From: Henriciella sp.
GTDB taxonomy: Bacteria > Pseudomonadota > Alphaproteobacteria > Caulobacterales > Hyphomonadaceae
Length of the DNA: 33,260 nt
Assembly: GCA_027019605.1 (NCBI GenBank)
Contig: JALUWJ010000263.1
Location: 1 to 33,260, forward strand
Direction of reading: 5' to 3'
Numbering within the stretch: the stretch's first letter is position 1; the number at the start of each line of letters is the position of its first letter. Below, one piece after another: positions 9,247 through 26,106 of this stretch. The notes beneath the pieces are model-generated. The model did no database searches, was not told the origin of the DNA, and saw only the letters and a program-made list of their open reading frames with translations. Both the position numbers and the translations under genes were made by a program.

Positions 9247-9361
9247 GAGCAGAACTTCCAGTTGCAGAATAGCTGCGCCGGACCTAGCGCACGGCGAGCG
9301 CCAGATCCGGGCAGGACACGTTTATCCGTAATGAAACACTTCGCGGTGTCCAGCCCCCTTG

Positions 9362-10998: not shown

Positions 10999-11975
10999 GA
11001 TACCCTGCATCTGAGAAGCTGGAGATCATCCATCTGGTCGAGCAATCGCATCAGCCGATCAAACGCACGCTGGAACAGATCGGTGTGTCACGCCCGACGT
11101 TCTATCGCTGGTATGATGCCTGGCAACAAGGCGGTGTCGATGCCCTGGAAGACCGGCGCTGTGGCCCCAAAGTAACCTGGAACCGTATTCCGGATGGTAT
11201 TCGCGACGCAGTCGTCAAAATGGCCTTGGATCGCACCGATCTCAGTCCACGTGAACTGGCTGTGACCTTCACCGATGAGAAGCGCTACTTCATCTCAGAA
11301 GCCAGTGTCTATCGCATCCTGAAAGCCAGGGACCTGATCCCGAGCCCGGCCTTCATCGTCATCAAGGCGGCCGATGAGTTCAAGGATAAGACCACGCGCC
11401 CAAATGAGATGTGGCAGACCGACTTCACTTATCTGAAGGTGATTGGCTGGGGCTGGTATTACCTGTCCACCGTGCTTGATGATTTCTCGCGCTATATCGT
11501 CAGCTGGAAGCTTTGCACCAACATGGCCTCCATCGATGCGCAGGAAACCCTGGACCTCGCCTTGCAAGCCTCTGGGCTCGACCAGGTCAAAGTCAGACAC
11601 CGGCCTCGTATCCTCTCGGACAATGGGCCGTCTTACGTATCTGAACAATTTGCCGACTGGCTTGCCGAAGAAGGCTTCACCCACACGCGTGGAGCGCCTT
11701 ACCATCCACAGACCCAGGGCAAGATCGAGCGCTGGCACCAGACGCTCAAAAACCGCATCCTCTTGGAAAACTATTTCCTGCCCGGTGACCTCACCCACGA
11801 GATCGACGCCTTTGTCGATCACTACAACCATCGCCGCTACCACGAGAGCCTGAACAACCTCACGCCCGCTGACGTCTCCTTCGGCCGCGGCGACGAAATC
11901 CTGCAGCAACGCGCCCAAACCAAACGGAGGACCATGAAACTACGCCGCTTGCATCATGCAAGATCTACTGATTAA
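10995..11975 (+). CDS. IS3-family transposase OrfB (DDE) of element C
   Basis: The 326-residue protein has an N-terminal helix-turn-helix (PIKRTLEQIGVSRPTFYRWY), an HTH_21-like segment and the rve integrase core. Catalytic residues are Asp143 (QTDFTYL), Asp209 (LSDNGPSY) and Glu245 (GKIERWHQ), with 35 residues between the last two, as expected for IS3. The frame is complete and the C-terminal YNHRRYHESLNNLTPADV motif is intact, so the enzyme should be active. Confidence 0.94.
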   Translation: MRYPASEKLEIIHLVEQSHQPIKRTLEQIGVSRPTFYRWYDAWQQGGVDALEDRRCGPKVTWNRIPDGIRDAVVKMALDRTDLSPRELAVTFTDEKRYFISEASVYRILKARDLIPSPAFIVIKAADEFKDKTTRPNEMWQTDFTYLKVIGWGWYYLSTVLDDFSRYIVSWKLCTNMASIDAQETLDLALQASGLDQVKVRHRPRILSDNGPSYVSEQFADWLAEEGFTHTRGAPYHPQTQGKIERWHQTLKNRILLENYFLPGDLTHEIDAFVDHYNHRRYHESLNNLTPADVSFGRGDEILQQRAQTKRRTMKLRRLHHARSTD

Positions 11976-12073: not shown

Positions 12074-12388
12074 TTATTCATCCTGCATCATTTCGATTGA
12101 TCTTTCGATCCGATCATCCCCGGAAACGGATCGGTTTTCACTGCAAATTTCTCCATCTGAGCAGATAAAATTACGTTTGGTTGCCCATAGGCCTGGCGTA
12201 AAGCAACCTGTTACCCAACTCTTGGGCAACCCTTTTGTCGCTCCCATTGAGATGGTTGGGGATTGAGAAAAATCGTTCGACATAGGTGGCTCGTTTGGTG
12301 CCCGGAGGCTGGTGCACGATGACACGGAAGCCAAAAGCAATGACAAAGCGATGAGGGAGACGCGTTGGCACCGAAAGAAACTCTTCAT
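12074..12388 (-). CDS. Small lipoprotein of the regulated block (104 aa)
   Basis: The ATG at 12388 gives a basic then hydrophobic leader ending Ala-Ser-Val-Ser-Ser-Cys (Cys25), an acceptable lipobox, followed by a Pro/Ser-rich linker and a short mature region with two more cysteines. GGGAAG lies about nine bases before the ATG. A longer in-frame start exists at 12421 but lacks a ribosome site and would bury the signal peptide. A perfect TAACC-N5-GGTTA site lies 63-77 bp upstream with TAAAAT 20 nt nearer the gene. The stop is within 50 bp of the insertion-sequence boundary. Function unknown. Confidence 0.6.
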   Translation of the reverse strand: MKSFFRCQRVSLIALSLLLASVSSCTSLRAPNEPPMSNDFSQSPTISMGATKGLPKSWVTGCFTPGLWATKRNFICSDGEICSENRSVSGDDRIERSIEMMQDE

Positions 12389-12450
12389 TGTCCATCTTCC
12401 CAAAAAATTGATCAGTTCCAAACTATTTTAAACGGGGGTGGCGGAGCAAG

Positions 12451-12465
12451 TAACCATTTGGGTTA
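12451..12465. promoter_or_regulatory. Palindromic operator copy 1 (TAACC-N5-GGTTA)
   Basis: TAACC ATTTG GGTTA is a perfect match to the motif shared by six intergenic regions of this block. It lies between the phosphatase gene and the lipoprotein gene at 12074-12388, with TAAAAT (a -10-like hexamer) 20 nt towards the lipoprotein gene. Confidence 0.65.
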
Positions 12466-12502
12466 GGTGTGCTGAGATGGCGACTCATCGATCACCGCAC
12501 CA

Positions 12503-13294
12503 TCAATTGGAGGGGTGTGGAACAGGATCTAAAACGTAAGGGGTAAAACGCTCGGACCCAACCGAGATGAAGGTGGGAGACATACCCTGCTGGAGCGTAA
12601 GCGCGGTCAACCCGCCGCCATGGACCGCTCCGGTGTCAATGCCGGTCGCATATGTAAACTTTGCTGGCCTGCTCAAAAAAGGTTGGTGGCCAAAAACGAC
12701 ATGTCCGAACCGGCCATCATAAACCTCTGCCCAAAATGGATCGGCTGGCCCTTGGTCTCCGAGGGCGAGAAACTCACCTGACTTCGCATTGACAAAACGG
12801 GTACGATAAATCTTTTCAATTCGCTTTGCTTCCCGCCCGGTCAGCGCACTGGCTTCTTCGACTGAGACGGGAAAGTCTTGCAAGGTTCCGGGAATTCCGC
12901 CGTGTACGACAAGCACATCATGTGTCTTGCAGCGGTAAAACGGAACCGACCAGTCGAGGAACGCCATTCCTTCTGACGCTAGTTGCTCTTTAAATTGCTC
13001 TAGCTCAGGCGCTCGGGCAGCTTGCTCAATTGCAACGCGTGGCCTCAGTTTCAGGTTGCGCAAGTATCGACGCATCCGGTCTTCGTGATTGCCTTCAACC
13101 ACAACAATTTCATAGTCTGCAGTGCGGCGGAGACTTTCGACATATTTCACGACACCGATGGAATCAGGCCCCTTGTCGATCAGGTCGCCGACGAAGACGA
13201 GCTTGTCAGAGGGGTGAATATCCAGCTTGCAGACAAGCGCACGCAACGGTGCCAGCATCCCGTGCACATCACCGATAATGCATAAGCGGCTCAT
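12503..13294 (-). CDS. PPP-type metallophosphoesterase (Ser/Thr phosphatase or ApaH-like)
   Basis: The 263 residues carry every metal-site motif of the calcineurin-like PPP superfamily: GDVHG (Asp9, His11), GDLIDKGPDS (Asp37), GNHE (Asn69, His70), HGG (His131), GHQPF (His203) and DTGAVHGG (Asp220, His225). Such enzymes remove phosphate from proteins or hydrolyse diadenosine polyphosphates, and the sequence alone does not decide. It is cytoplasmic. No TAACC-type site lies upstream, so it may not belong to the regulon. The 236 bp between it and the next gene upstream (13295-13530) show nothing recognisable. Confidence 0.9.
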   Translation of the reverse strand: MSRLCIIGDVHGMLAPLRALVCKLDIHPSDKLVFVGDLIDKGPDSIGVVKYVESLRRTADYEIVVVEGNHEDRMRRYLRNLKLRPRVAIEQAARAPELEQFKEQLASEGMAFLDWSVPFYRCKTHDVLVVHGGIPGTLQDFPVSVEEASALTGREAKRIEKIYRTRFVNAKSGEFLALGDQGPADPFWAEVYDGRFGHVVFGHQPFLSRPAKFTYATGIDTGAVHGGGLTALTLQQGMSPTFISVGSERFTPYVLDPVPHPSN

Positions 13295-13530
13295 TTCCCG
13301 AACTCACTACTTCCAACCGCCCCGCGATCCTACAGGTCACTGGCCGTCATACGCCCTGTAACAACATGTGCGCACCTTCGCGACTCCCATGCGGCGCGCT
13401 CTTCCGATGGAGACGCTGTCGCACAGGCAGAAAGACAAGCAGCGCCGCCAAGAGTGCGCGCCGGTAATGGGAATCAGCTTTCATTCAAAATGTACGCCTT
13501 CTCGGGAACACGAGGGAACACGACGCGTGA

Positions 13531-14988
13531 CTATTGGCTAAACAGACAAGCCGCATGAAACCCTCCAAGCCCCTTTTCACTGGATTCTGACCCAAAATCA
13601 CCCAGCATCACTGTTCGAACAGCGCCGTTTTGCCTGATGTCGGCGTAGATCTTGAGAGTTTTTGAGCGCATCGCATCTTCTAATGAGAGAAAATTGATCC
13701 CCATTCTGGTCAACGCTTCTAAGGATGTTCCAAAAAGTTCGGCCTGACGCCGCGTGCGCTCGAGCAAAGCCGGGTCCTGAACATATTTATTATCGAGTCT
13801 TGATGGGATCATATCTGCAAAAATGATCCGCAGTGTGTTGGTATACCGCGTATCGTCGATGACTTCTAATTCGGCGCGATGGGTAATGATGCCGCGCTCC
13901 GTTTCTAATCGCACTGGCACATGATCGTTTCGCACAACCCAAGCGGCATTTGTTCCCGGAGAAGCCGCGTGCGTGACTGTCACGTAAATCGACTGATAAC
14001 CCGATAGATTGTGGCAAAGCATCTTGCTCTTGAAAAGAAGCCCCCGGTCACGGAAGTGTCGATCAACACCAAAGTACTTCCCGCCCACGGCTTCCAATGT
14101 CCCCCAACGCTCTCTGTCAATCTGCACATTGATATCGTAAGATTCGCGGTACAAGTCGGATAGTTCTTGCTGCAATATGGCACGTTGCTCCGCAGGTGAA
14201 CTATCTGTTTTCTTAGGCGTTGTATCATTTTGAGCAGCTTGTTGTGCAGCTCGCGCTTCAGCCAATTCTACCGCCTCGTTTCTCGTTTCAGCCGCAAGTT
14301 CCTCGGTTTGCGCCGCACGCAGGACGTCGCCCGTGCGAGCGGCCTCGATAAGCTGAGCTCGTTCGCTTTGAGCGTGTGTTTTTATTTGATATTCGTCGCA
14401 CTGAAGTCCGCTGTGGCCCTTCGCTTCCGTTGCCTCTGCTAGGACCAGCATGGCTATCCCGGCTTTTCTCGTGAAGGCGTGTTCGGAGGCGCGCATCGAA
14501 GCGAACTGCGTAAACTCATCATGCAAGCTCTTTCCTTGTTGAAGGAGCGTGGAGCAAACGCCGAGAACATCACCTCTCACAAAACTTGCGAATATGAGTT
14601 GTCCGGGTTGTTCCTCTTGTTCCAACGTCGAGATGAAAAGGCGCGTTTCTTCATCTTCAAATATCGACCTAGAGAAAGTTGGATTCGCCTCCCAGTCTTC
14701 ATTCGGTTCCTTGTATGTCGCCATTCGATCAATCGGAACAAAACCCATATTGAAAACTCGAAAGGTCTGCTCAGGTGAATTCGTCTCAGCCTCTCTATAT
14801 GCTGGAATGTATTGGTTCTGGTCACTGATAGAGTAGAGCCCCAAAGGTCCATGGGCATCGCTTATCGTTATCAGTTCGCCCTTTACCGGAAGGAAATAGT
14901 CCTCTTTCTCATAGATTTTGTCTTCGGCTTGCCAGCATCCAGAAAGCATTAATAGAGTAAAAAGCGAAATTACTCGCACGACAGTCAT
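13531..14988 (-). CDS. Lipoprotein of unknown function, paralogue 1 (485 aa)
   Basis: A signal peptide ends in Leu-Ser-Gly-Cys (Cys18). The N-terminal ~200 residues resemble the neighbouring lipoprotein at 15125-16441: both have an ITISDAHGPLGLYS-type block, then a YIPAYR-like segment and a QTFRVFNMGFVPID-like segment, then a helical region. Residues about 205-265 are Ala/Glu-rich and helical, probably a coiled coil. The C-terminal ~220 residues differ from the paralogue. A perfect operator lies 97-111 bp upstream. The protein probably sits on the outer membrane facing the periplasm or the surface. No enzymatic motif was seen. Confidence 0.78.
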   Translation of the reverse strand: MTVVRVISLFTLLMLSGCWQAEDKIYEKEDYFLPVKGELITISDAHGPLGLYSISDQNQYIPAYREAETNSPEQTFRVFNMGFVPIDRMATYKEPNEDWEANPTFSRSIFEDEETRLFISTLEQEEQPGQLIFASFVRGDVLGVCSTLLQQGKSLHDEFTQFASMRASEHAFTRKAGIAMLVLAEATEAKGHSGLQCDEYQIKTHAQSERAQLIEAARTGDVLRAAQTEELAAETRNEAVELAEARAAQQAAQNDTTPKKTDSSPAEQRAILQQELSDLYRESYDINVQIDRERWGTLEAVGGKYFGVDRHFRDRGLLFKSKMLCHNLSGYQSIYVTVTHAASPGTNAAWVVRNDHVPVRLETERGIITHRAELEVIDDTRYTNTLRIIFADMIPSRLDNKYVQDPALLERTRRQAELFGTSLEALTRMGINFLSLEDAMRSKTLKIYADIRQNGAVRTVMLGDFGSESSEKGLGGFHAACLFSQ

Positions 14989-15084
14989 GGCGTATTTCTC
15001 AACTCATTTTGGCGTAAAGCTTGCCAGCTTACCTATTAATCCACGGGTTCAAATAATCTCTAGCATTTCGCCTAAGACATCAAA

Positions 15085-15099
15085 TAACCGTTTCGGTTA
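15085..15099. promoter_or_regulatory. Palindromic operator copy 2 (TAACC-N5-GGTTA)
   Basis: TAACC GTTTC GGTTA is a perfect match, 97 bp before the ATG of the lipoprotein at 13531-14988. TAGAGA, a possible -10, lies 22 nt nearer the gene. The flank TGCACC resembles TGCGCC next to copy 3. Confidence 0.65.
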
Positions 15100-15124
15100 T
15101 GCACCGCTAATGGCGTCCACAGTG

Positions 15125-16441
15125 TCAGTTGCTTCGCAAATGATCATACAGTGCCGAAGCCTTTTCAGCATCACGCACAACGGCAACAGGTCCAATGTCA
15201 GGCTGATTGCGCGCGCGTAGCAAACAACGCACACGTCTGCAGGATCCGATCGCTACGTCATAAGCCATGCACGCATTAGGATTACTCTGTCGGCTGGGCG
15301 CGTACTGAAGCCCCTCGTACCAGACACCGGGCGCGTCCCGTTCAGAGAACTCAAATCTGGCAGACCAGTTAGGATCGGTATACTCTGCACAAGATCCATT
15401 TCGGGTGGCAGCGTAAGCCTGATACTCATACTGTTGGGTATCAGGGAAAAACTGTACTCGACCCATCCTACCGTTTCGTGCGGTTGCGTTAGCATGACCT
15501 CGAACAACGTTGAGAGTGTAGGCTCTAACACCGCCGCGATATTCGGCTGGGTCAAATCGTGCGACGCCGACTTTGCTGACATGAAAATATCCGCTCAGGT
15601 CCTCAAGCCGAATTTGGACCCCGTCCGCTTCTAGCTTGGCGAGACGGGCGCGTTTGGCTTCTGCCTGTCTTGCTGCGAACTCTGCGTCTCGTGCAGCCCT
15701 ATCGGCGACGCGAGCCTCTTTCGCCGGAACGATTTTTGCGACTGCCGTTCGAACCTCGTCGTTTAAAATCTCTTCCACTTGATAGATGTCTTCACCGCAC
15801 TCTATCCAGCCCTCTTCTACGGCAGACATCATATTTTGGATGGCGGCCTCAAATATAGCGTGCGTTCTCGCTTCTGCGCTGATGGCTTTATCGAACAAGG
15901 CGTCAACCAAATTTGCATAATCGCCATAACCTGGACCACTGACTGAGGTGGAAAACACGCCATCCCCCGTACACCGGCTGATAGCGGCACCATGGATCAG
16001 CACAGGTACGATATACTGCCCTCCGGACCCAGAACTGGTAGGTTCCTGCCCGACCAAGATTGCCAGCCTCTTGTCGTGGTCTGAACTGAATTTATGCGAG
16101 TACTGACGCCACGCCGGGGCGCTACTCAGGGCGAACCGGTTCGGAGGCGGGGCAAACTTGTCAATAAAAACGATCGCAAATCGACTTACTTCGAATGTCT
16201 TTTGCGGCTGGCTCTTTTCCGAAGGATCAACGCGATGCTGTGGCACAAACCAGTTGCCGTCCCTGCCATAAACCCCGATCGGGCCGAACTCATCACTGAC
16301 AGAAAAATAGTTCCCGTCAAAGGGTTGGTCGAATTCGGCCTCATCCAGTTCAAACGACCCAAGGTCCCAGCATGCGGCCAGCATCATCGGCCCTATGATG
16401 AGAATGATCGACCGTACAAATTTCACCGTATTGAACCTCAT
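15125..16441 (-). CDS. Lipoprotein of unknown function, paralogue 2 (438 aa)
   Basis: The start at 16441 is chosen because GAGGGGA precedes it and it puts a signal peptide with lipobox Leu-Ala-Ala-Cys (Cys24) at the N-terminus. An upstream extension to 16510 would add 23 non-signal residues. The N-terminal half matches the neighbouring paralogue (VSDEFGPIGVYG, WFVPQHR, KTFEVSRFAIVFIDK). Residues about 245-290 form an Ala/Arg/Glu-rich helix, and the C-terminal ~140 residues are unique and Cys-containing. No operator lies directly upstream. The gene may be read through from the small lipoprotein gene 117 bp upstream. Confidence 0.78.
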   Translation of the reverse strand: MRFNTVKFVRSIILIIGPMMLAACWDLGSFELDEAEFDQPFDGNYFSVSDEFGPIGVYGRDGNWFVPQHRVDPSEKSQPQKTFEVSRFAIVFIDKFAPPPNRFALSSAPAWRQYSHKFSSDHDKRLAILVGQEPTSSGSGGQYIVPVLIHGAAISRCTGDGVFSTSVSGPGYGDYANLVDALFDKAISAEARTHAIFEAAIQNMMSAVEEGWIECGEDIYQVEEILNDEVRTAVAKIVPAKEARVADRAARDAEFAARQAEAKRARLAKLEADGVQIRLEDLSGYFHVSKVGVARFDPAEYRGGVRAYTLNVVRGHANATARNGRMGRVQFFPDTQQYEYQAYAATRNGSCAEYTDPNWSARFEFSERDAPGVWYEGLQYAPSRQSNPNACMAYDVAIGSCRRVRCLLRARNQPDIGPVAVVRDAEKASALYDHLRSN

Positions 16442-16558
16442 CGCTTCCCCTCGCATATCTGATACTTTAGCGCATAACAGCGCCGACGAACTTTTGCAGC
16501 TCATCACCATGCAATCTCTGTACTGATCTTGAAACGGGATATGGGCCGCTCCTAACTT

Positions 16559-16879
16559 CTATCGAACGCCATCAGAACAAACTTTAGACGCCCATGCACC
16601 AACACAGCTGCACACAAAAGCTGACTTCTGAGCCTCAGCCTCCGCAAAACCGTCGCGACGCAATCCCGTCGCAATCAGACGGTAATTGGGCATGAAGCAG
16701 TCCGTCGAAACATCACCTGCCAGCGGCTCCTCTGACTCAATAATCTGGCTTTCAGACGTCGAGTAATTGGTCGAATTGTTCACGTCTTCATTGACTGGGT
16801 AATGGACGCAGGCCGAAATCGACAAGGCGGCCAAAGTCAAGACGATAACCAGCAAAGATGTAGGCGGACAGCGTTTCAT
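16559..16879 (-). CDS. Small lipoprotein (106 aa)
   Basis: The leader (basic MKR start, hydrophobic core) ends in a lipobox Ile-Ser-Ala-Cys (Cys24). The mature part begins with an Asn/Ser/Thr-rich spacer and ends in a compact region with several cysteines that could form disulphides. AAGAG lies before the ATG. A perfect operator lies 61-75 bp upstream. It is probably the first gene of a unit that continues into the larger lipoprotein at 15125-16441. Function unknown. Confidence 0.7.
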   Translation of the reverse strand: MKRCPPTSLLVIVLTLAALSISACVHYPVNEDVNNSTNYSTSESQIIESEEPLAGDVSTDCFMPNYRLIATGLRRDGFAEAEAQKSAFVCSCVGAWASKVCSDGVR

Positions 16880-16939
16880 AAGTACACTCTTGCGACCTCT
16901 TCGCCTTACAAATTTCTCGATCTCGACAGTTGGGGCAAC

Positions 16940-16954
16940 TAACCATTCAGGTTA
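16940..16954. promoter_or_regulatory. Palindromic operator copy 3 (TAACC-N5-GGTTA)
   Basis: TAACC ATTCA GGTTA is a perfect match, 61 bp before the small lipoprotein gene at 16559-16879. The -10 candidate here is weak. The flank TGCGCC resembles that of copy 2. Confidence 0.65.
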
Positions 16955-17029
16955 TGCGCCTTCTGAAGTACCTGATAGTTTGCTCAACGCGCGATATGCG
17001 GTGACGCATGCGGATTACTGATATCGAAA

Positions 17030-18238
17030 TCAAATCTGAAAGTGATATTGATCATTACTGACGAGCCCGCCAAAATTCTCGACACGCACGGTTTTTGGCG
17101 CAATTTCCCCCTTTAGATACGTGTTGCAGTCATGGTCGCCGACAATCAGGAATTGTAGATCGCAAAAACCATCCCAAACATAGAATAGCCCTGTTGCGCC
17201 ATAGGTCGTGCCACCACCGCAAAGCCGTGCGTCAGATGTGATGAACCAGTCGGAATATCCAGCTTCGCTGTCCATCACATCCCAAATTCTCTCACTTGGG
17301 TGTTCATCAATTTTAATCACACACGGCTTCACAATGTTCTGCATTTTCTCCGATCGTGACGCACATTGGAAACTGTGTTGCGCTCCTCCCGGTTTGGTTA
17401 TCCAGTCAATGCGCACATTCGGAGACGGCAGATGCTGGTCGTTGATAAAGCGCAATTTTTCAGAGGGCTTCATTCTGGCGAACATGGCGCATGACAAGAC
17501 CGCACGCCGATCGGCCGGATGAGGCCAAAGAGGCAACGGAAGAACATCCGAGCACATACCCGTCGAGAGGTCCCAAACGCGGATGAGATAGTCCCGCCCC
17601 CACGTAATAAGCCTGCCATCCTCTAGAAGTTCAACACCACGGACATCGCCGAAATGATGCCCACGGAGAAAGTTAATTCGCTTACCAGACTGCGTTTCCC
17701 AAATTGCCATGGGTTGCGGCACCAGTGGTCGGTGTCTTCCATCAGCAAGAAAACTCGGGGCGTAGTACTTCCAACGCCCCTCCACACCGAGCACCATCCC
17801 CTCGCCGAATTCAAACAAGTTGAAGAATAAAACGCGATCACTGTCTTCTAGCCGAACCGGTTCGTCGGTTTCTGGCAAATACCAAGCTGGCTTCCCCCAA
17901 CTTGTTAGAAAATTTCCGCGCTTCTTGTGATTGGAGTAGTCACTACGCTCCTCCATGAGCTTTTCAATCTGCCTGATCCCGGCTTCCATCTTTGCGCGCG
18001 CTGAGATATTGGCAGTGTGAATCGAAATTTTTGGTGCCGTCCACATTTTCATGCTGACTGCTTCCTCAATCCACAATATAACATCATAGCCCGTGCCCCG
18101 CTCATCATCACCGAGATCATGATCAAGACTAATCTCTGTCACTTCGCCCGAATGCAGAAGATCAATGACCTCATCGGGCCAATAGCACCTGACCCAACCC
18201 TCCGGCGTCTCACGCTCATCGTCCAAATATACTTTCAT
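17030..18238 (-). CDS. Cyclic-phosphate-processing receiver (cREC) domain fused to WD40-like repeats
   Basis: Residues 1-100 match the cREC family, a receiver-like fold predicted to act on cyclic phosphate ends. It opens with VYLDDER (Asp6, Asp7), then TPEGW, SLDHDLG (Asp39, His40, Asp41), GTGYDV and an IHTAN block (His74, Asn77). After a linker, residues about 130-402 contain WD40-like blades, the clearest ending LIRVWDLSTG near residue 235. I do not know this fusion from described systems. The ATG at 18238 is preferred to a TTG five codons earlier because AAGGG is correctly spaced before it. It is the last gene of a four-gene operon, 11 nt after the WD40 gene. It is cytoplasmic. Confidence 0.82.
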   Translation of the reverse strand: MKVYLDDERETPEGWVRCYWPDEVIDLLHSGEVTEISLDHDLGDDERGTGYDVILWIEEAVSMKMWTAPKISIHTANISARAKMEAGIRQIEKLMEERSDYSNHKKRGNFLTSWGKPAWYLPETDEPVRLEDSDRVLFFNLFEFGEGMVLGVEGRWKYYAPSFLADGRHRPLVPQPMAIWETQSGKRINFLRGHHFGDVRGVELLEDGRLITWGRDYLIRVWDLSTGMCSDVLPLPLWPHPADRRAVLSCAMFARMKPSEKLRFINDQHLPSPNVRIDWITKPGGAQHSFQCASRSEKMQNIVKPCVIKIDEHPSERIWDVMDSEAGYSDWFITSDARLCGGGTTYGATGLFYVWDGFCDLQFLIVGDHDCNTYLKGEIAPKTVRVENFGGLVSNDQYHFQI

Positions 18239-18249
18239 GACGTCGCCCT

Positions 18250-19161
18250 TCAAACGTGCATGGATAGGTGCTCAAGCCGCACCCAATCGCTCGTCCAGTT
18301 AACTGCGCTGACAATTTTCTCTCGATGAGCATGAAACAGTTTGAGGATTTCTAAGGCAGATTGGGTTTTGCAATCTTGCAAGCTTGTTAAATCCACGCGA
18401 TAGATCGCCGGACCATCCTTATCAGCAATAATACTGACGCCATCAGGGTGGTATCCAACAGCGTAAGTTTGCTTGATATTATTGGAATATATGGCGTATC
18501 CGGAGTTTAGGTGAAACAATCGCGCCCCACTTTTAGTCCCAGTGAAAAGTAGGCTTCCATCTGGGCTAAATTTCAACGCGGCTTCATGATCGCAGGCGAT
18601 GAATTCGCCAAGATAATCCCCGCGATGAACATTCCATATCCGAACAGCGCTATCGTACGCATAGGATACAGCGACCAACTGTGAATCGGGTGAGAACGCC
18701 ACATTCACGGTGCACGCTTCTGCCGAATTTCGGTCCCAGGCAAGACGCGTGAACATCTCGTCCGTTGCCGCCTCAAACACGCCAACAAAATCATTGCGGT
18801 CCGTGTAGAAACGACCATCGGGACTGCGGGACCTGTCGCGGAATATATCGGGCGAGCATTCTTGCCTGGTACGCTCAGCAGTCTTGCCGGTCATCAGATC
18901 CAATGAAATGATGGTATTTCCAGAACGAAAGACGATCTCGTGGCCGCCATTGACAAACTCGATTGGATCGAAGGCATTCGGCTCGCAATCTGATGAAAAA
19001 TGCTGAACTGGCGGCCCCATCCCATCCGATGGGGCTGAGCGATGAAGCACAAGCGCAAGCTGCATCGACATTGCTTCCAATAGTTCAGTTGATGGGTTGG
19101 GAGCTACGCATTTATCCACGCAGTCTTCCAGATGGTCGCAGAATGCTTCGACGGCCTCCAT
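18250..19161 (-). CDS. WD40-repeat protein (303 aa)
   Basis: The first ~70 residues are helical and unrecognised. Residues about 75-285 hold WD40-type blades, seen as FSPDSQLVAVSY ending VRIWNVHRG, KFSPDGSLLFTG ending ARLFHLNSG, and a YHPDGVSIIADKD blade. The propeller is short and probably degenerate. There is no signal peptide, so it is probably a cytoplasmic scaffold. The start at 19161 has GGGAAG six bases upstream; a TTG two codons earlier is the alternative. It sits between the PH/Lcl_C membrane protein and the cREC-WD40 protein in one operon, and could dock to either. Confidence 0.78.
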   Translation of the reverse strand: MEAVEAFCDHLEDCVDKCVAPNPSTELLEAMSMQLALVLHRSAPSDGMGPPVQHFSSDCEPNAFDPIEFVNGGHEIVFRSGNTIISLDLMTGKTAERTRQECSPDIFRDRSRSPDGRFYTDRNDFVGVFEAATDEMFTRLAWDRNSAEACTVNVAFSPDSQLVAVSYAYDSAVRIWNVHRGDYLGEFIACDHEAALKFSPDGSLLFTGTKSGARLFHLNSGYAIYSNNIKQTYAVGYHPDGVSIIADKDGPAIYRVDLTSLQDCKTQSALEILKLFHAHREKIVSAVNWTSDWVRLEHLSMHV

Positions 19162-19195
19162 CGTCAACTTCCCTTGAAAGGGTTCGAAACTGACC

Positions 19196-20521
19196 TCAAT
19201 CCCACTGGAGCTCTTCGTCTTCCATCCTCGGTGCTTTCAATTCGCCGCCTGTAAGCTTGCGGACGAATAAAACGGGCCGCTCATCTGAAACCTTGAAATC
19301 ACCGACCGGGAGCCCGCCATCAAACGCCCAGGCGAGTCCTCCACCCAGCCCATTCGCAGTCCACAAATAAGACTTCATGGCCGACAGCTCCGGATAGAGG
19401 CGCTGGAATACCGCTCGCGCGGCCTTTCCATGCCATTGCCAGTCATATGTATCATCTCGCGATAGATCATGATCTTTGCGGCCAGCATCATTCGAATTGC
19501 TGTGAATATAGGGAGAGAGCCGATCTATTTCCTCGGCAGTTGGAAGCCTCCAATCCTTGTATCCTGCCGCATGCACCACACAACTGCCGCGCTCGTACCC
19601 ATTGCTGAAAGCTGAGGCCCTGCGCTTCTCATGCCCCATATAGGCCATTGTGCTTCCGACATTGTAGCCAACGTCAACGCCTATCCCAAAGAGATCTGCT
19701 GCGGTTCCCCATTTGAGGGGGATCGGTTCGCTGGCAAAACCAACCCCCGTCCAAACCATGCCCCAGGGGGCGCGAAGCCACATCAGTTGGCCCTGCTCAT
19801 CGGTCACGGTCCCGTCATCATTATCCGTGTAATTGCCCAAAGGAGTCTTGATGCGTTTCGCAATCATCTCCGAGACTTGTTTGTAGTCTGGAGCTCGCCC
19901 GAAATGGGTGTACTTCGACGACTTAGCCTCTTTCAGAGTTGGCAGTTCTGGAATTCGACTTGCGTGCCCGTCACCAGTCGACGTGGAGGACATGCGCGGC
20001 GCATCACTGCTCTGGTGCGAGGCCGAAGGGTCGCCCGATTTCAGTCGATCCAGGAAGGCAACGACCTGATCTGGGTCTGGCGCATCCTTCCAAGTCAATC
20101 GGCTGCGATCATCACCCGTCCAAAAGGCCAGTGTGCCATAATTGAGAATCCGTCCGATGAAGCTCTGCCCCATATCTGTCTGGACTTTGTCCGTCAGGGA
20201 AAATTCGCGTTTTACCCTAGAGATAAAACCGGCAACCAATCGGAGTTTCGTACCGTTCTCAATCTCATAAGCGTGGGTATAACGATGATAGAAAACGCGA
20301 ATTACGATTGGCAAAAGCCCTATCGCTAATCCAAAGCCAGCAAACTCAGTGGAAAGGCCCAGAGCATCAGCCATGCCGTCAAAGAAAGGGCGCTGAGCAA
20401 TCCACAATCCAATCACAGCCATGGCGGCAAGAAAGCTCCCCCAATAACTGAGCCAAGCCGGACGCATCCTCAAAACGTCCTGGCCTCCCCGTTGTACGGT
20501 CTTGAATAGGCGCGATGTCAT
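19196..20521 (-). CDS. Membrane protein with bacterial PH domain fused to Lcl_C (DUF1566-like) domain
   Basis: Residues about 20-80 contain two membrane helices. They are followed by a bacterial PH-like domain (about 83-160; it starts YEIENGTKLRLVAG and has a TFWTGDD-like strand reading LAFWTGDD), as in YdbS/DUF304 proteins. A Ser-rich linker leads to an Lcl_C/DUF1566-type domain (about 235-435) with the typical DNGDGTVTD-like block (NDDGTVTDEQGQLMW), GYKDWRLPTAEEI and YLWTAN. Such domains are usually extracytoplasmic lectin-like or formylglycine-like folds, so the topology is uncertain. It overlaps the upstream small gene in ATGA and is 34 nt from the WD40 gene. Confidence 0.75.
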   Translation of the reverse strand: MTSRLFKTVQRGGQDVLRMRPAWLSYWGSFLAAMAVIGLWIAQRPFFDGMADALGLSTEFAGFGLAIGLLPIVIRVFYHRYTHAYEIENGTKLRLVAGFISRVKREFSLTDKVQTDMGQSFIGRILNYGTLAFWTGDDRSRLTWKDAPDPDQVVAFLDRLKSGDPSASHQSSDAPRMSSTSTGDGHASRIPELPTLKEAKSSKYTHFGRAPDYKQVSEMIAKRIKTPLGNYTDNDDGTVTDEQGQLMWLRAPWGMVWTGVGFASEPIPLKWGTAADLFGIGVDVGYNVGSTMAYMGHEKRRASAFSNGYERGSCVVHAAGYKDWRLPTAEEIDRLSPYIHSNSNDAGRKDHDLSRDDTYDWQWHGKAARAVFQRLYPELSAMKSYLWTANGLGGGLAWAFDGGLPVGDFKVSDERPVLFVRKLTGGELKAPRMEDEELQWD

Positions 20522-20766
20522 GAATCCCCCGAAGTGTTCTTATTAAATGTTTCCAATTTTCCACTTACATTATTCACCAGACGCAAGGAGAACGGCAAGA
20601 AATCTTCGCGATATCTATTCTCGGAAAAATAGTCCAAAGCTCTTTGGACATCCGGGTGCTCAAACAAACCTGCCTCAGAGGCAATCGCTCCAATGACTTG
20701 ATAGGCTTGGCCCATAAGTTCTTGCCCACGACGGTTGGTTTCAGATTTTGGTGTTGCGCTCTTCAT
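20518..20766 (-). CDS. Small cytoplasmic protein of unknown function (82 aa)
   Basis: The protein is polar and helical with no signal or membrane segment. GGAAAGGA stands before the ATG. The stop overlaps the start of the PH/Lcl_C gene by four bases, so it is the first gene of the four-gene operon (20766 down to 17030). A perfect operator copy lies 143-157 bp upstream, with TAGGAT 19 nt nearer the gene. It could be an adaptor or subunit of the operon's complex, but I recognise no family. Confidence 0.65.
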   Translation of the reverse strand: MKSATPKSETNRRGQELMGQAYQVIGAIASEAGLFEHPDVQRALDYFSENRYREDFLPFSLRLVNNVSGKLETFNKNTSGDS

Positions 20767-20908
20767 CTCGTTTCCTTTCCAGTCATATAACTTCTGTCTC
20801 GGTGACTAGACCGATGTTGAGCGCTAAGAAACTATTCCGCATTTCTTTTGACTCTTAGCCAAACGCTTTATTGTTTGAACCCTATCCTACATATTGCCAT
20901 CATGCAGC

Positions 20909-20923
20909 TAACCATCCAGGTTA
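20909..20923. promoter_or_regulatory. Palindromic operator copy 4 (TAACC-N5-GGTTA)
   Basis: TAACC ATCCA GGTTA is a perfect match, followed by a further GGTTA half-site (GGTTAGGTTAGG). Towards the four-gene operon, TAGGAT at 20884-20889 is a good -10 candidate 19 nt from the palindrome. It sits just past the stop of the kinase gene. Confidence 0.68.
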
Positions 20924-20940
20924 GGTTAGGAAACGCAGGC

Positions 20941-22266
20941 TCATGACAACCGGAAGAAAAGCGAAGCTTTCAATCCCGGGGCGGCATTTTCCAACTTCAA
21001 TTGAGCCCCGTGGCGGATTGCAACGGCTTCCACATGCCGTAATCCAAACCCATGCCCGCCGGAATCGCCGACGCGACCCAATGCGGCTAGCGCTTCCAGC
21101 TCGGTGCTTTTTACCCCTGGCCCATGATCTCTGACAACAAACCCCACCCTCTTGCCATCTCGCACCATCGAAACTGTGACTTTCGACTGTCTTGGTGCAT
21201 GTTTGAGCGCATTGGACAGGAGATTGATTAGCGCACTCTCTATCAATGGCTTCGAGCCCAGTATTTGAGCGTCCGCATCTTCAATATCGACAACTATAGA
21301 AACGGCCATTTCGTCGAAGGACTCAGAGTAGAGATCCAGTGCTGACGTCACCACATCTGCCAGTTTGATTGTCTGCATGGCAAAGCCAGGGGTCGCCTCA
21401 ATTTTCGCCAATTCCAAAATATGGGTCACCAGTTCAATCAGTTGATCTGCCTGTTTGGCGCCCTCAGTCTCTCCTTTGTTAGACAGACGGTCTCGTAAAT
21501 TGGTGATCGAATGGTTCAGTTCATGTGCTGCAACCTGACTATAGGATTCAAGCCCCCGCAACAGGCGCTCAACTTCATCAAGCGCGTTGTTTACGTGATG
21601 CTCCAACACACCCAGATCATCATCCAGAGTTGCCCGCGTCGTGGTTGGCATTCGAGCACCAAGTTCGCCCGACTCCACGCTTTGGAAAACCTGATTGAAA
21701 GCCTGAACTTTTCGGCGAAAGCGCTGATTGAGGCTCCACAGGAGCAGTGAACTCAGCCCGCTGAGCACAAGCACGCTAATCGCAAGTATTGGCAGGAACC
21801 AGGCGTTTAGAGATTGGCGTGCAGTCAATCGGCGGCCGACTAACAGACGGTGATCCCCTTCAACACTGACAATACGAATAAGAACCGGTCCGGCTGTAAT
21901 GCCAAGCTCTTGCCCAGTCACTTCTGTCCAGATGTCGGTTTCGGACTGGGGCATACGCTCGGCATTACCAACAATAGCGCCCCCTTCGGTACCTGCAAGC
22001 AGGTAAACCCAGCCCCCCTCTTCTGCATTTTCGGTGAACATGCGTCGACCAATATTGGTTGTCAGAATTGCCGTATCGGGAATGGTGTTCCGCTCAGGCG
22101 TGCGGTCAAGCATGATCGCAATTTCTCGCGATATATCCTCCCTGGCCGCGCGTTCAACGGCCATGTCAACGGCGCGAAAGGCAGTAAAAATAGCGACCGC
22201 AGCCACACAAAAGGTCACCACCAAATTCGTGTAGAGAGCGATGGAAATGGGGGATCGGAACAACAC
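20941..22266 (-). CDS. Sensor histidine kinase with HAMP domain
   Basis: Layout of the 441 residues: membrane helix 1 (about 8-30), a periplasmic sensor of about 120 residues, membrane helix 2 (about 155-178), HAMP (about 180-235), the phospho-acceptor region with His248 (AAHELNHSITNL), and the ATPase with N box (NLLSNALKHA), G1 (DHGPGV) and G2 (GHGFGLRHV). The H box departs from the usual HELRTPL, having Asn-His-Ser in place of Arg-Thr-Pro. The start is GTG, with AGGG six bases upstream. Its partner is most likely the OmpR-type regulator at 23261-23983. A near-perfect operator copy sits 93-107 bp upstream, suggesting autoregulation. Confidence 0.9.
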   Translation of the reverse strand: MLFRSPISIALYTNLVVTFCVAAVAIFTAFRAVDMAVERAAREDISREIAIMLDRTPERNTIPDTAILTTNIGRRMFTENAEEGGWVYLLAGTEGGAIVGNAERMPQSETDIWTEVTGQELGITAGPVLIRIVSVEGDHRLLVGRRLTARQSLNAWFLPILAISVLVLSGLSSLLLWSLNQRFRRKVQAFNQVFQSVESGELGARMPTTTRATLDDDLGVLEHHVNNALDEVERLLRGLESYSQVAAHELNHSITNLRDRLSNKGETEGAKQADQLIELVTHILELAKIEATPGFAMQTIKLADVVTSALDLYSESFDEMAVSIVVDIEDADAQILGSKPLIESALINLLSNALKHAPRQSKVTVSMVRDGKRVGFVVRDHGPGVKSTELEALAALGRVGDSGGHGFGLRHVEAVAIRHGAQLKLENAAPGLKASLFFRLS

Positions 22267-22358
22267 TACATGCCCTATTTTCTATTCCAGCTATCTGCCA
22301 ACGTGAGTGACAGCGCCTTTATGCACAAACATTGTCGCAAAACGGAGTGATCGTCACA

Positions 22359-22373
22359 TAACCAATTCGGTTT
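22359..22373. promoter_or_regulatory. Palindromic operator copy 5 (one mismatch)
   Basis: TAACC AATTC GGTTT has one mismatch to TAACC-N5-GGTTA. It lies 93 bp before the kinase start, with GACAAT 22 nt nearer the gene as a possible -10. Confidence 0.55.
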
Positions 22374-22378
22374 GACGC

Positions 22379-23179
22379 TCATTCCTGTGTCAGCGCCGTC
22401 GTGACGCTAGCGGCGTTACCACTAACGAAAATGAGGACCGGCACACGAAAACGGCTGTGATTGGTCAACCATATCTCCACGCCGGTATGATCGCCGGGCG
22501 CAACATAGCAAGATAGTCTCCCCTGCTTGGCGCGCGGCGAACAGGCTGTTTTTGTTGTATCAGGGGTGATTGGCATGCGTTTCACGCGCATTGACAATTC
22601 GGTGGGCATTTCTGCGTAAGGGCGGCCAACAGGTTGCACAAAGATCGTTGTTCCTTGTGCCCCATCAACGGGCAGCTGAAGGAGCTCCGGCGCGTTTGGC
22701 TCCAGCGTGGCGTCTATTTCCAGTCCGATTGTCACTTTAACCGCGCGCCGTTCCCCGATAAATCCACGGAAAACACCCAACTCGCCTGATTGCGCCATTT
22801 GCTCTTGAGGAAAGATGCGCTCAATACGTGAAAGCGTATCCGGATCATTTTGCGCCAACGCTCTTGCCGCTCTGACCATTTCGAATGCGCCAGTTTCGAT
22901 GGCCTCCCAGCGCCTCGAGATTTGCGACTGCCCCCCAATCCCTTCAACAGCGCCGGGCAGATTGATCAGGTCCAGTAATTCGAGACGTGCTTTGGCTGAT
23001 CGCGCCATTCCAACAGCGTCACCGGCAGATTTTCGCTCTTCAAACTGCTGCTCTATGAAAAACAGAGTGCTCGCTATGGAGGAGCCATCATGGGCTATGC
23101 TCGTGCCGACTTGACGGGTTGCACACCCGGCGAGCGACCCCACGAGCAATGGTAAAATGAGCATTGTTCTGAACTTCAA
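22379..23179 (-). CDS. Lipoprotein of unknown function next to the two-component system (266 aa)
   Basis: The TTG start at 23179 gives a leader with Lys and Arg, a hydrophobic core and lipobox Leu-Ala-Gly-Cys (Cys19). The first internal ATG would leave a leader without positive charge, so TTG is preferred; AGAGG lies upstream. Residues about 40-130 are helical, and the C-terminal half looks beta-rich. It stands between kinase and regulator genes, so it could be an accessory periplasmic sensor, but this rests on position only. The divergent regulator gene is 81 bp away with operator copy 6 in between. Confidence 0.72.
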   Translation of the reverse strand: MKFRTMLILPLLVGSLAGCATRQVGTSIAHDGSSIASTLFFIEQQFEERKSAGDAVGMARSAKARLELLDLINLPGAVEGIGGQSQISRRWEAIETGAFEMVRAARALAQNDPDTLSRIERIFPQEQMAQSGELGVFRGFIGERRAVKVTIGLEIDATLEPNAPELLQLPVDGAQGTTIFVQPVGRPYAEMPTELSMRVKRMPITPDTTKTACSPRAKQGRLSCYVAPGDHTGVEIWLTNHSRFRVPVLIFVSGNAASVTTALTQE

Positions 23180-23185
23180 AGGATC

Positions 23186-23200
23186 TAACCTCTATTGTTA
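23186..23200. promoter_or_regulatory. Palindromic operator copy 6 (one mismatch)
   Basis: TAACC TCTAT TGTTA has one mismatch to the consensus and is followed by GGTGTG, as in copy 1 (AGGTGTG). It lies in the divergent gap, 61 bp before the response-regulator ATG and immediately before the lipoprotein start. Confidence 0.5.
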
Positions 23201-23260: not shown

Positions 23261-23983
23261 ATGTCCGAAGACCGCCAACTCTTGATCATCGAGGACGACA
23301 AGACGATGGCGCCCGCTATGGCGACCGTCGCGATCGAACTTGGATATCAAGTCAGTTTCGCCGAAACGCTTGATGAAGCCAAAGGCGTCACGGCCACCAC
23401 TCTGCCTGAGTTGGTGATCCTCGACAGGATGCTTGCGGATGGCAGTGAGGGGCTCGACTATATCGCATGGCTCGATGCGCTCGAAGGCAAGCGCCCCGGC
23501 ATTCTCGTCGCCAGCCGACTGACATCCGTCAGCGATCATATTTTGGGCCTGGAGGCCGGCGCCGACGATTACATCAACAAGCCCTTCGACCCGAAAGAGC
23601 TTCGCGCCAGACTGCGCGCTGTGGCACGCCGCGCAGAAACAAATCGTGCGCCTGCGAGCGTTCTCATATTTGATGCGCTGGAACTCCGTAAACTGAGTGG
23701 TCAGGCATTCATCAATAATATTCCATTGGATCTGCGCCCACAATCGTTTTCCTTGCTGAACGCAATCGCTGAACGTCAGGGCGAATGGGTCAGCCGCAAG
23801 GCGCTTTGGCATGAGGTGTGGACGGACTATAAAAACCTCTCACCACAAGACACCGTCATCAACACCGCCATCAGCCGTCTGCGGCGTGTTCTATCAAAGG
23901 CAGAAAGAGCCCCGGAAATCGTCAGCGAAGATTTAGGATATCGACTCGTTCCGCGGGAAAAGAAGCCAACTTCGCCCTCGTAA
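23261..23983 (+). CDS. OmpR/PhoB-family response regulator
   Basis: The 240 residues contain a receiver domain (1-120) with acidic pocket Glu11-Asp12-Asp13, phospho-acceptor Asp55 (VILDRML), Ser85 at the switch position and Lys107 (INKPF). A winged helix-turn-helix (about 135-232) follows, with DTVINTAISRLRRVL as recognition helix and a GYRL wing end. It is the natural partner of the kinase at 20941-22266 and the best candidate to bind the TAACC-N5-GGTTA sites. It is the first gene of a plus-strand unit continuing into 24024 and 25423. Confidence 0.93.
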   Translation: MSEDRQLLIIEDDKTMAPAMATVAIELGYQVSFAETLDEAKGVTATTLPELVILDRMLADGSEGLDYIAWLDALEGKRPGILVASRLTSVSDHILGLEAGADDYINKPFDPKELRARLRAVARRAETNRAPASVLIFDALELRKLSGQAFINNIPLDLRPQSFSLLNAIAERQGEWVSRKALWHEVWTDYKNLSPQDTVINTAISRLRRVLSKAERAPEIVSEDLGYRLVPREKKPTSPS

Positions 23984-24023
23984 TTCCAAACCACTCTCTC
24001 AGCTTATGTCGCAAAGGCCTGTC

Positions 24024-25382
24024 ATGAAACTCACCCCATTACTATTTCTCGTGGCTTGCTTTGCTATTGCGTTACCCGCGTCGGCAGAAACTTACTATCT
24101 GAAGGACCATCCCGGCTGGCATGCCTTTGGCGACCCTGAGGGCAAGCTGACCTTTACGCGAGACGATAGTTCACTCGCTAAATTATCCATAACAACCTAC
24201 CCCGCCCAATCAGATCAGATTGCGAGCGATGAAGACCTCGCACACAAAATTGAGCAGATTGTTGCTGATATTGTCAGAAGTCGCCCGACGCAATGTGCCG
24301 GATTAAGTGGCGTCCCCCCTCAACCCGACGGTATGGGTCTTGAAGTCAAGAACGACCCGATACGCCCGACATGCTTCCTGTTTGTCAGCATGACTCCAGA
24401 GAAGAAACTTTTTGCGAATCTCTGGATAGAGAATAGCGGCCTTGCCCGCGATGGGCTTGCTTACCAAAACACCGCCAGTCTGTGGCTTCATCTCGCCTTC
24501 AGCAGGATACAGGGGCTTCCGATTGTTCCAACCAGCGGCGCACCGGCGGACCTGGCATCGATTGCGGAAAAGGCCGCCGTAGACCACAGCCCAGCTCGGA
24601 TGCTTCTGACACAGAAGAGCGATGAGTACGCCCCAAAGTACAGGGCCCTGCCAATATTTGAGGGACAGCCGATCACCAATTGTGTGGACTGGGATCCAAG
24701 TTTTTACACGCCGAAAGATCTTGTGGCTGAATCACCTTTGGAAGCACTACGCCCCATCATCCCCGCCTGTTCGATCTTTGCCTGGAAAGATAACAATATA
24801 ACCGGCCAGCCTGAGGCTTATATTGAAGGCGATTGGCAACCACTGTCAGTACTTGGTCAAAAAGAACCTTTGCTGTTTTATGATGTGACGGGCACCCGCA
24901 TTGAGCCGTTTGAACCTGGCGAACAAATCAACTTCCTGAGCGGCGACAAAACGCGCCTGTTTTCCTATGTTCGCACGGATGGCAATATCAGAGATCTGTC
25001 GGCACAAGATGTCTGGTTCACCCCGGACGGGCGCTATACGTCAGGCGGCTTTGGGCTTGCCAACAGGCCGCGGACCCTGCCGTCTGGCTCAGACGGTCGT
25101 TACTACCTGCATGGTCATATTGCCGTGTTTGAACGCGATGATGGTCCAATCCTCATCGCACTTGCCGGAAAGACCATGAAGGATGGCAAAGTTGATCAGA
25201 TCTTTATCGGCAACAGATCCTTTGAAGCCTCAGAAGAGTATGAATCTTTTCGCAGCATCTCTCAAGCTTCCCAACCGGATGCCGCGACAGATCGGCAATC
25301 GGAATCCAGCGCACGACCGGCCGCGCCTGAAAAACCTGCGAGAATTCCTTTAGTTATCCCACCGAGGAAGACGCCTCATTAG
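24024..25382 (+). CDS. Secreted protein of unknown function (452 aa)
   Basis: The start at 24024 has AAAGG upstream and places a clear signal peptide at the N-terminus (cleavage after Ala-Ser-Ala, about residue 21). An ATG six codons earlier lacks a ribosome site. The mature protein has a beta-rich N-terminal part beginning YYLKDHPGWHAFG, a central region with paired cysteines, a C-terminal beta-rich region, and a Pro/Arg-rich tail. I recognise no family. It begins 40 nt after the response-regulator stop, so it is probably co-transcribed and periplasmic. It is a candidate output or signal-binding partner of the two-component system. Confidence 0.72.
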   Translation: MKLTPLLFLVACFAIALPASAETYYLKDHPGWHAFGDPEGKLTFTRDDSSLAKLSITTYPAQSDQIASDEDLAHKIEQIVADIVRSRPTQCAGLSGVPPQPDGMGLEVKNDPIRPTCFLFVSMTPEKKLFANLWIENSGLARDGLAYQNTASLWLHLAFSRIQGLPIVPTSGAPADLASIAEKAAVDHSPARMLLTQKSDEYAPKYRALPIFEGQPITNCVDWDPSFYTPKDLVAESPLEALRPIIPACSIFAWKDNNITGQPEAYIEGDWQPLSVLGQKEPLLFYDVTGTRIEPFEPGEQINFLSGDKTRLFSYVRTDGNIRDLSAQDVWFTPDGRYTSGGFGLANRPRTLPSGSDGRYYLHGHIAVFERDDGPILIALAGKTMKDGKVDQIFIGNRSFEASEEYESFRSISQASQPDAATDRQSESSARPAAPEKPARIPLVIPPRKTPH

Positions 25383-25422: not shown

Positions 25423-26106
25423 ATGGACGACGATTCTCAAAACGCCTTTAAAGTGTGGTTCGATCCGCATATTAAGAACCTTATTCATGCGACCTTCTCC
25501 TACATGGCAGAGAACTATCACATGACCGGCGTGATAGATCATGCTGCCTGGGTCATTCAGGAAGGGGAGCTTGAAAGCTTGCTTCCCACTTTCGCGCCGC
25601 GCGCCCAAGCCGCACGCTACACGTCATTTTCCTCCAAAGATTACGATAGATTTGTGCGTCTGATCGATTATGCGGGCTATGCAGCTCCAAAACAGAAAGA
25701 CCGGGCATTGCTGGAACTGATCCATGAGTGCTTTCTGGACTCAGGGCGCGGCAATAACCGAATTTATGCCCTGATGATGTTCGCTCCTGATAGTCTGGCA
25801 GCTCTCGTCTCAGTGTTCGGCAAGATTATTGATGACCCAGGCGCCATAGATAATTCAATGTACGACCTCACGCCCTGGCCAAAATTCGTGGACCTGACAA
25901 ACAGATTGAAAGAGCTTCAGGCGACGCCGGATCGACAAATCTTTGTACCCATGACTTTTGGAGAATGGGCGGCATACTCTTCATACTTAAGCCATGTATT
26001 CGATCTGGACGAAGAAGATCTGACATCCGGCGAGACCGCTGAGATAGAAAAACTTCTCGCTGAAACGGGTGTTATTCTAATGCTTCATGCGAAGCCGGGG
26101 GGATGA
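25423..26106 (+). CDS. Cytoplasmic protein of unknown function (227 aa)
   Basis: The protein is mostly helical by composition, with no signal peptide or membrane helix. The ribosome site is weak (CCTTGAA before the ATG). It follows the secreted-protein gene by 40 nt in the same direction and is probably the third gene of the regulator operon. I recognise no family and see no catalytic motif. Confidence 0.65.
   Translation: MDDDSQNAFKVWFDPHIKNLIHATFSYMAENYHMTGVIDHAAWVIQEGELESLLPTFAPRAQAARYTSFSSKDYDRFVRLIDYAGYAAPKQKDRALLELIHECFLDSGRGNNRIYALMMFAPDSLAALVSVFGKIIDDPGAIDNSMYDLTPWPKFVDLTNRLKELQATPDRQIFVPMTFGEWAAYSSYLSHVFDLDEEDLTSGETAEIEKLLAETGVILMLHAKPGG

Follow-up and report, generated by a model that had tools for sequence, protein, structure and literature searches.

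In PhoB-type promoters, a regulator of the PhoB/OmpR type sits at the -35 element, and the pho boxes are direct repeats. Inverted repeats seem not to be the usual mode of OmpR-type regulators, for which AgrR and the CopR/CusR group can serve as precedents. AgrR of Cupriavidus metallidurans, an OmpR-family protein, is described as an autoregulated type II activator that binds an inverted repeat of the 6-4-6 type, with the proximal half better conserved (PMC7380067). An account of the palindromes of CusR, CopR and CzcR of Pseudomonas and CusR of E. coli describes a very restricted, local CusR regulon and a palindrome between divergent operons that include the regulator's own (PMC11195947). Here we describe a locus in a 33,260-nt stretch of Henriciella sp. 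DNA (contig JALUWJ010000263.1; the window), where a response regulator gene, a sensor kinase gene and several lipoprotein genes are accompanied by six copies of the palindrome TAACC-N5-GGTTA, which probably acts as the operator of this two-component system (Table 1).

The locus resembles AgrR in that the half-site centres are 10 bp apart (6-4-6 in AgrR, 5-5-5 in the window) and the proximal half is better conserved among the window copies, and the type II position and autoregulation would also agree; the AgrR half-site ATTACA and its metal-resistance targets, as far as that account goes, differ from the TAACC half-sites and lipoprotein genes found here (PMC7380067). The restricted regulon and the shared palindrome between divergent operons, one of them the regulator's own, are likewise described for CusR; the CusR/CopR/CzcR palindromes differ in their sequences (ATTCATnnATGTAAT; TGACAAnnTTGTCA) and in the metal response (PMC11195947). 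The geometry of the AgrR/CopR/CusR group, with inverted half-sites spaced by one helical turn and close to the -35, recurs in the window relative to the putative -35 element; the consensus of that group, ATKACANNNNTGTMAT or close to it, is not, the motif being TAACC-N5-GGTTA. Compared with PhoB-type promoters, the proposed placement at the -35 element is alike and the inverted repeat is different. Literature text searches, which would miss sequences in figures, did not find TAACC-N5-GGTTA.

Four copies of the motif in the window are perfect and two carry one mismatch, AAACC in copy 5 and TAACA in copy 6. The coordinates and mismatch counts of a preliminary description of this DNA were reproduced, as was its claim that all six copies are intergenic (6/6). 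It had also placed them upstream of genes in one block, and each copy indeed precedes one transcription unit, as judged by gene order. Five copies belong to - strand genes; copy 6 is placed between the regulator gene and a lipoprotein gene, which diverge from each other. GGTTA, the promoter-proximal arm, is identical in all six, and only the distal arm, as seen from the - strand genes, deviates. No further copy with 0-1 mismatch was found in the window, and eight additional copies have two mismatches.

Table 1. Candidate operators, promoter elements and genes of the locus (positions in the window; genes are also cited in the text by their first coordinate).
Feature	Position	Strand	Remarks
Operator copy 1	12451..12465	-	TAACCCAAATGGTTA; perfect; upstream of lipoprotein gene 12074-12421
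Operator copy 2	15085..15099	-	TAACCGAAACGGTTA; perfect; upstream of lipoprotein gene 13531-14988
Operator copy 3	16940..16954	-	TAACCTGAATGGTTA; perfect; upstream of lipoprotein genes 16559-16879 and 15125-16510
Operator copy 4	20909..20923	-	TAACCTGGATGGTTA; perfect; upstream of unit 20518-19196-18250-17030
Operator copy 5	22359..22373	-	AAACCGAATTGGTTA; one mismatch; upstream of kinase gene; counterparts in G011, G143, G148
Operator copy 6	23186..23200	.	One mismatch; between regulator gene (+) and lipoprotein gene 22379 (-)
-35-like element	12444..12449	-	TTGCTC, one base past copy 1
-35-like element	15078-15083	-	TTGATG, same place after copy 2
-35-like element	16933-16938	-	TTGCCC, same place after copy 3
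-35-like element	20902-20907	-	CTGCAT, same place after copy 4
-35-like element	22352-22357	-	GTGACG, same place after copy 5
Small lipoprotein	12074..12421	-	Likely start MKSFFRC; ortholog at end of a G011 contig
Metallophosphoesterase	12503-13294		No operator copy before gene
Lipoprotein, distant paralog of 15125	13531..14988	-	26% over 153 columns
Two lipoprotein genes	16559-16879, 15125-16510	-	Lipoboxes by eye
cREC (cyclic-phosphate processing receiver) + WD40-like protein	17030-18253	-	Adjoins second WD40-like protein
WD40-like protein	18250-19167	-	
Bacterial-PH/Lcl_C protein	19196-20521	-	
82-aa protein	20518-20766	-	
Membrane sensor histidine kinase	20941..22266	-	Pfam HATPase_c 2.6e-13, above cut-off
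Lipoprotein	22379..23179	-	Lipobox LAGC by eye; TTG start
Response regulator, OmpR/PhoB type, proposed operator-binding protein	23261..23983	+	Pfam Response_reg, Trans_reg_C
Second regulator-operon gene, no known family	24006..25382	+	Signal peptide by eye
Third regulator-operon gene, no known family	25423..26106	+	86% in G011

The earlier estimate of about 0.03 chance occurrences is about right: one perfect copy appeared in 3 of 120 dinucleotide-preserving shuffles of the window, and more than one in none. Since the motif had been picked after the sequence was read, the count was repeated for every 5-base arm with spacers of 0-20. TAACC with a spacer of 5 was the top motif under this free choice (4 copies), and one motif or another attained four copies in 4 of 120 whole-window shuffles. 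Within intergenic DNA, which makes up 12.6% of the window according to our gene list, no motif was counted more than twice in 400 shuffles, compared with 4 copies in the actual sequence. Gene borders in this and the following genome-level analyses, including those of G143 and G148, were taken from the longest open reading frames (ORFs) and our own uncurated list.

The preliminary description had proposed a genome-wide search, with a motif common and random across the genome as the outcome that would speak against an operator; the search did not give that outcome. Every one of the four perfect copies in the own assembly (G000; 3.37 Mb, 327 contigs, 84% complete) is at the regulon locus. At up to one mismatch the assembly holds 40 copies, six of them inside the 10.75-kb block; among the other 34, 30 lie wholly within ORFs of at least 90 aa and 4 do not, compared with six of six intergenic at the locus (Fisher p 5e-5). 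As a control, the pattern read backwards gives 6 perfect copies and 170 at up to one mismatch, versus 4 and 40. The motif is thus not over-represented genome-wide, and its signal is clustering rather than copy number. The 27 other genomes of the genus without a regulator ortholog (G011 left out) contain 16 perfect copies, or 0.59 per genome, a rate that predicts about 0.002 perfect copies per block of regulon size. A wider regulon in the own genome is unsupported: no locus protein was matched (E 1e-3) in the 34 stretches around the outside one-mismatch copies, 30 of which are inside ORFs.

Among 60 relatives searched, a close regulator ortholog was found only in G011, a genome of the same genus (87% complete); the next are 36-37% identical or less among the matches listed. 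The G011 locus is spread over two contigs, with regulator, kinase and lipoprotein sharing 91%, 91% and 84% amino acid identity with those in the window. G011 has only two perfect copies of the motif, both in the homologous locus, and 40 copies at up to one mismatch, four of them in that locus. Across the four promoters shared with G011, 0 of 40 arm bases and 2 of 20 spacer bases have changed, versus 67 of 421 other bases of the same intergenic DNA (Fisher p 0.0014 against the arms; gaps counted as changes). The arms of copy 1 are unchanged (TAACCTAAATGGTTA), and the non-consensus arms of copies 5 and 6 are also retained. G011 lacks the 13.3-17.0 kb segment that holds copies 2 and 3 with their lipoprotein genes.

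G143 and G148, from another genus of the family, were found via the 22379 lipoprotein (38% and 36% identity). Their loci share a core of the regulator (68% in both), this lipoprotein, the kinase (46-47%), the PH/Lcl_C protein (61-62%) and the phosphoesterase (67-69%). The 24006, 25423, 82-aa and WD40/cREC genes were unmatched in the 16 and 20 kb read, and G143 holds only the end of a 13531 ortholog, at a contig edge. Copies with 1-2 mismatches stand at the three matching promoters. The regulator/lipoprotein promoter, which carries a one-mismatch copy in G011, has TAACAAACGAGGTTT in both genomes (2 mismatches), and the kinase promoters have CAACCCAAGGGGTTA and CAACCCGAACGGTTA (1 mismatch). The PH/Lcl_C promoter, where copy 4 also has a counterpart in G011, carries TGACCCGCTTGGTCA in G143 (2 mismatches, arms perfectly inverted) and TAACCCGTCTGGTAA in G148 (1 mismatch). 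The kinase promoters of the two genomes have the same CAACC and GGTTA, followed by the same TGTGACAC, and differ in between and beyond.

Three additional copies with 0-1 mismatch are present in G148. The perfect one is upstream of a small 16559-like lipoprotein gene followed by a 13531 ortholog (79% identity); the one-mismatch copies are upstream of the 1396 ORF and of a second PH-type gene (L072 1996-3291), in which only the PH part matches the 19196 protein. This last copy is inside a 100-aa ORF of doubtful reality, and the kinase-promoter copy of G148 falls within a mechanically called ORF on the reverse strand, which overlaps the genes of the lipoprotein and the kinase. In total, the G143 stretch (L071) holds one copy and the G148 stretch (L072) five copies at up to one mismatch, where about 0.2 each are expected at the G000 rate, their own genomes being uncounted. 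The motif, its positions, its confinement to the locus in two genomes and its co-conservation with the regulator are established, and by this comparison between genomes the operator and its regulon are very likely real.

The 23261 product is the only protein common to all four loci with a recognised DNA-binding domain. Both of its Pfam domains score above cut-off (5.2e-16 and 4.2e-12), and residues D12, D13, D55 and K107 are kept in the four orthologs. The stretch QDTVINTAISRLRRVLS (QDTVINTA(I/V)SRLRRVLS) is identical in the four genomes except for one I/V exchange in G148, so that the predicted recognition helix is nearly unchanged in the other-genus orthologs. The heavy-metal subfamily model TIGR01387 gives 97.9 bits, far below its cut-off of 279.2; the RpaB and PhoB models score the regulator higher (116.2 and 115.6), also below their cut-offs. 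In the putative kinase, H248, the N-box and the G-boxes were recognised by eye, the HEL box with H248 is the same in G011, and the Pfam HisKA match is weak (E 0.24). Predicted structures of the regulator and the 22379 lipoprotein, based on two-row alignments, reached a mean pLDDT of 41 and 52 and gave no usable models.

For promoter analysis, 15 sites from four genomes, representing 8 ortholog groups, were aligned; the four copies of the 23186 type are located at a start codon and were excluded for that reason. Past the motif, T occurs at offset 2 and G at offset 3, each in 14 of the 15 sites. In the five - strand sites of the window the element reads TTG in three and CTG and GTG in the other two. 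A TTGACA-like hexamer at a fixed place after the motif was equalled in 0 of 1000 shuffles. We take this TG/TTG element as the probable -35 element, which would put the motif centre at about -44, as for an activator bound next to sigma. The preliminary description had instead pointed to -10-like hexamers 19-22 nt downstream of four copies. These hexamers exist as typed, but the support for their placement at the five - strand sites (p 0.012) weakens on correction (0.053). The constant promoter feature is not a -10 box but the TG element directly after the motif. Caulobacter-type -35 and -10 elements are spaced 10-14 bases apart, and the best score of a Caulobacter-type -10 lies 10-14 bases past the -35 box (p 0.003, corrected 0.045). 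The RpoD consensus published for Caulobacter is TTGaCgS / GCtANAWC, scanned in that paper with a spacing of 10-19 (PMC8144410).

On this evidence, we assign a probability of roughly 0.77 to the reading that the motif is the site of the 23261-23983 regulator, through which the kinase drives activation of a local, autoregulated, mostly lipoprotein regulon. The sensor kinase 20941-22266 would phosphorylate the regulator, and each of the two TAACC half-sites, whose centres are 10 bp or one DNA turn apart, would then take up one regulator subunit. With the weak TG/TTG-type -35 element immediately downstream of it, the bound regulator may help RNA polymerase to start, in a type II-like activation. 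Six transcription units would be governed by one site each: the kinase gene, four units of lipoproteins or envelope/signalling proteins, and the divergent region, where the regulator operon and the 22379 lipoprotein gene would share a site. With sites before its own genes and the lipoprotein units, the system would boost its own production and turn on the local lipoprotein set. The autoregulation proposed earlier is consistent with the copies before the regulator and kinase genes, which are kept together with the regulator in the three other genomes. Binding, phosphorylation, activation and the signal are inferences.

Several observations weigh against this reading. Four perfect copies also occur in G023, a genome of the same genus that lacks a regulator ortholog, each on a contig of its own, and the counts in G033 and G042, from other genera, are 6 and 8. 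According to the AgrR study, direct repeats are the binding sites of many OmpR-type regulators (PMC7380067). GGTTA is the proximal arm in only 5 of the 9 copies of G143 and G148. At the 23186 site, the regulator's own promoter does not have the same geometry, and the mismatch is in the regulator-near arm. A TATAAT-like box has no significant position over the 15 sites of the four genomes (p 0.32), and the Caulobacter-type -10 elements are weak, with 3-5 of 7 matches. Finally, the set on which the TG element was tested included the window sites. As the element was first noticed in these, only the 7 sites of G143 and G148 are independent; it is at the exact position in 5 of them and one base off in 2.

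The same operator and regulator might instead serve repression, or activation and repression depending on the promoter, in which case the bound protein would block the -35 region and a change in the kinase signal would lift the block. The motif is directly next to the -35-like element, where a protein could block polymerase, and the distance from the end of copy 6 to the TTG start of the 22379 gene (23179) is 7 nt. A precedent exists in CopR, which is reported to repress the pcoA2 operon, hindering CusR at a shared palindrome (PMC11195947). We regard repression as unlikely, as the -35 and -10 elements are poor matches, which is usual for activator-dependent promoters, and the motif is just upstream of the TG at all five window sites of the - strand and does not cover the -10 or the start.

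Less likely still is binding by a regulator whose gene is outside the locus, such as CtrA, which controls the cell cycle globally. A CtrA half-site reads TTAACCAT, and three of the six window copies read TAACCAT, close to it, on the + strand. Other candidates would be the 22379 product and the other shared proteins without a family match, which may be DNA-binding. AraC-type and LysR-type genes occur at 6.8-8.4 kb, in a separate stretch, and the G011 locus gave only distant AraC-domain matches (29-39%) and no LysR match. In Hyphomonas neptunium, CtrA is likewise an OmpR-type regulator with TAAC-containing sites; the box given there for cell-cycle control is TTAA-N7-TTAAC, with 222 bound chromosomal sites (PMC7200025). 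Both spacing and sequence of the window motif differ from this box, which fits 0 of the 6 copies, and perfect sites occur at a single locus; CtrA was rejected as the binder on account of the motif. More generally, an unlinked regulator would explain neither this confinement nor the co-occurrence with the 23261 regulator in another genus.

It is very improbable that the palindrome acts as an RNA hairpin (terminator, processing or repeat element). Five copies are within about 80 nt past a stop codon, and the 25-nt stretches give predicted stems of -3.4 to -6.9 kcal/mol; however, z-scores fall below -2 in only 2 of the 6 copies, a scan for terminators reported nothing at any of the six positions, the stem-weakening mismatched arms of copies 5 and 6 are unchanged in G011, and the motif is not a dispersed repeat, so this reading was discarded. 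A chance cluster of palindromes, for which the whole-window figure of 4/120 could be cited, can be dismissed with near certainty, given that more than two intergenic copies of any motif appeared in 0 of 400 shuffles and that the copies are conserved in three other genomes.

Five proteins of the block carry a lipobox recognised by eye (12074, 13531, 15125, 16559 and 22379). The 22379 gene has a TTG start, and the internal ATG of its ORF is not conserved in G011. Of 105 genomes of the family, four gave a match to its product (the own one, G000, and G011, G143 and G148), and its profile found, among 385 class genomes, the own one and two weak partial matches. The 15125 protein was detected in 1 of 61 genomes, its own, and a weak G148 match corresponds to the 13531-like gene. 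For the 25423 protein, the own genome was again the only one matched, out of 385 in the class. No family match was obtained, as far as scanned, for proteins of the 12074, 13531, 15125, 16559, 22379, 24006 and 25423 types, and neither Pfam, NCBIfam nor PADLOC gave a match for the 24006 and 25423 proteins. In G173 and G063 the 24006 protein has only a weak relative (27-29%), and these genomes contain zero perfect motif copies. A viral-contig scan and a plasmid tblastn with the 24006 protein found nothing. When 10 locus proteins were compared with PADLOC, only the phosphoesterase 12503-13294 matched, weakly (E 0.0033), and a defence-system reading was rejected; in G011, the homolog of this gene directly follows the 17030 homolog.

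On plasmids, the matches of the kinase and the regulator listed (1193 and at least 5000) are all below 60% identity. A related two-component pair (37% and 29%) is encoded on the Pseudosulfitobacter plasmid NZ_CP054608.1, in which the 18.7 kb read is free of copies with 0-1 mismatch; two copies with 2 mismatches are present, each within an annotated gene. The pair lies among caspase-like, trypsin-like and patatin-like genes (L066 4863-17298), and two intergenic regions there have a common stretch around CCAATGCACCATAAGC.

Beside the regulon, window positions 26807-31930 encode a TraG/VirD4-type coupling protein, a DUF3363 relaxase, an S26 peptidase and an HTH_17 protein, predicted to form a conjugative or mobilisable element. 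Transposase genes are at 10995-11975 (Pfam) and 9362-10537 (by eye). Together with AraC-, LysR- and hydrolase/dioxygenase-type genes, transposases occupy 4703-11975 and separate the regulon from the 799-4632 genes. Relatives of the 799-2478 and 3889-4632 genes (47% and 45%) directly adjoin the G011 regulon (L018 12010-14443), and the island therefore seems split in the window; between these relatives and the G011 regulon, zero operator copies at up to 2 mismatches were found.

A broader reading holds that this is a self-contained, horizontally moving regulon, in which a PhoB-like regulator has a private inverted-repeat operator and rare lipoprotein genes join as ready-made operator-plus-gene cassettes. 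It draws on the two-operator segment missing in G011, and on the perfect operator of G148, which precedes a lipoprotein pair with the 13531 ortholog in another arrangement. We consider it tentative, with the odds somewhat against it.

The type of system is known; what appears to be undescribed is the operator sequence, together with most of the genes under its control. To our knowledge, few regulons beyond that of CtrA have been mapped in the Hyphomonadaceae. For this family, the locus offers a defined operator, a likely regulator and a gene set without known relatives. The regulator is of the OmpR type outside the heavy-metal subfamily, and probably reads an inverted repeat. Its 68% identical orthologs, with altered operators, allow base changes to be compared with residue changes. 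The arrangement also suggests a route by which accessory genes may join the control of a resident two-component system.

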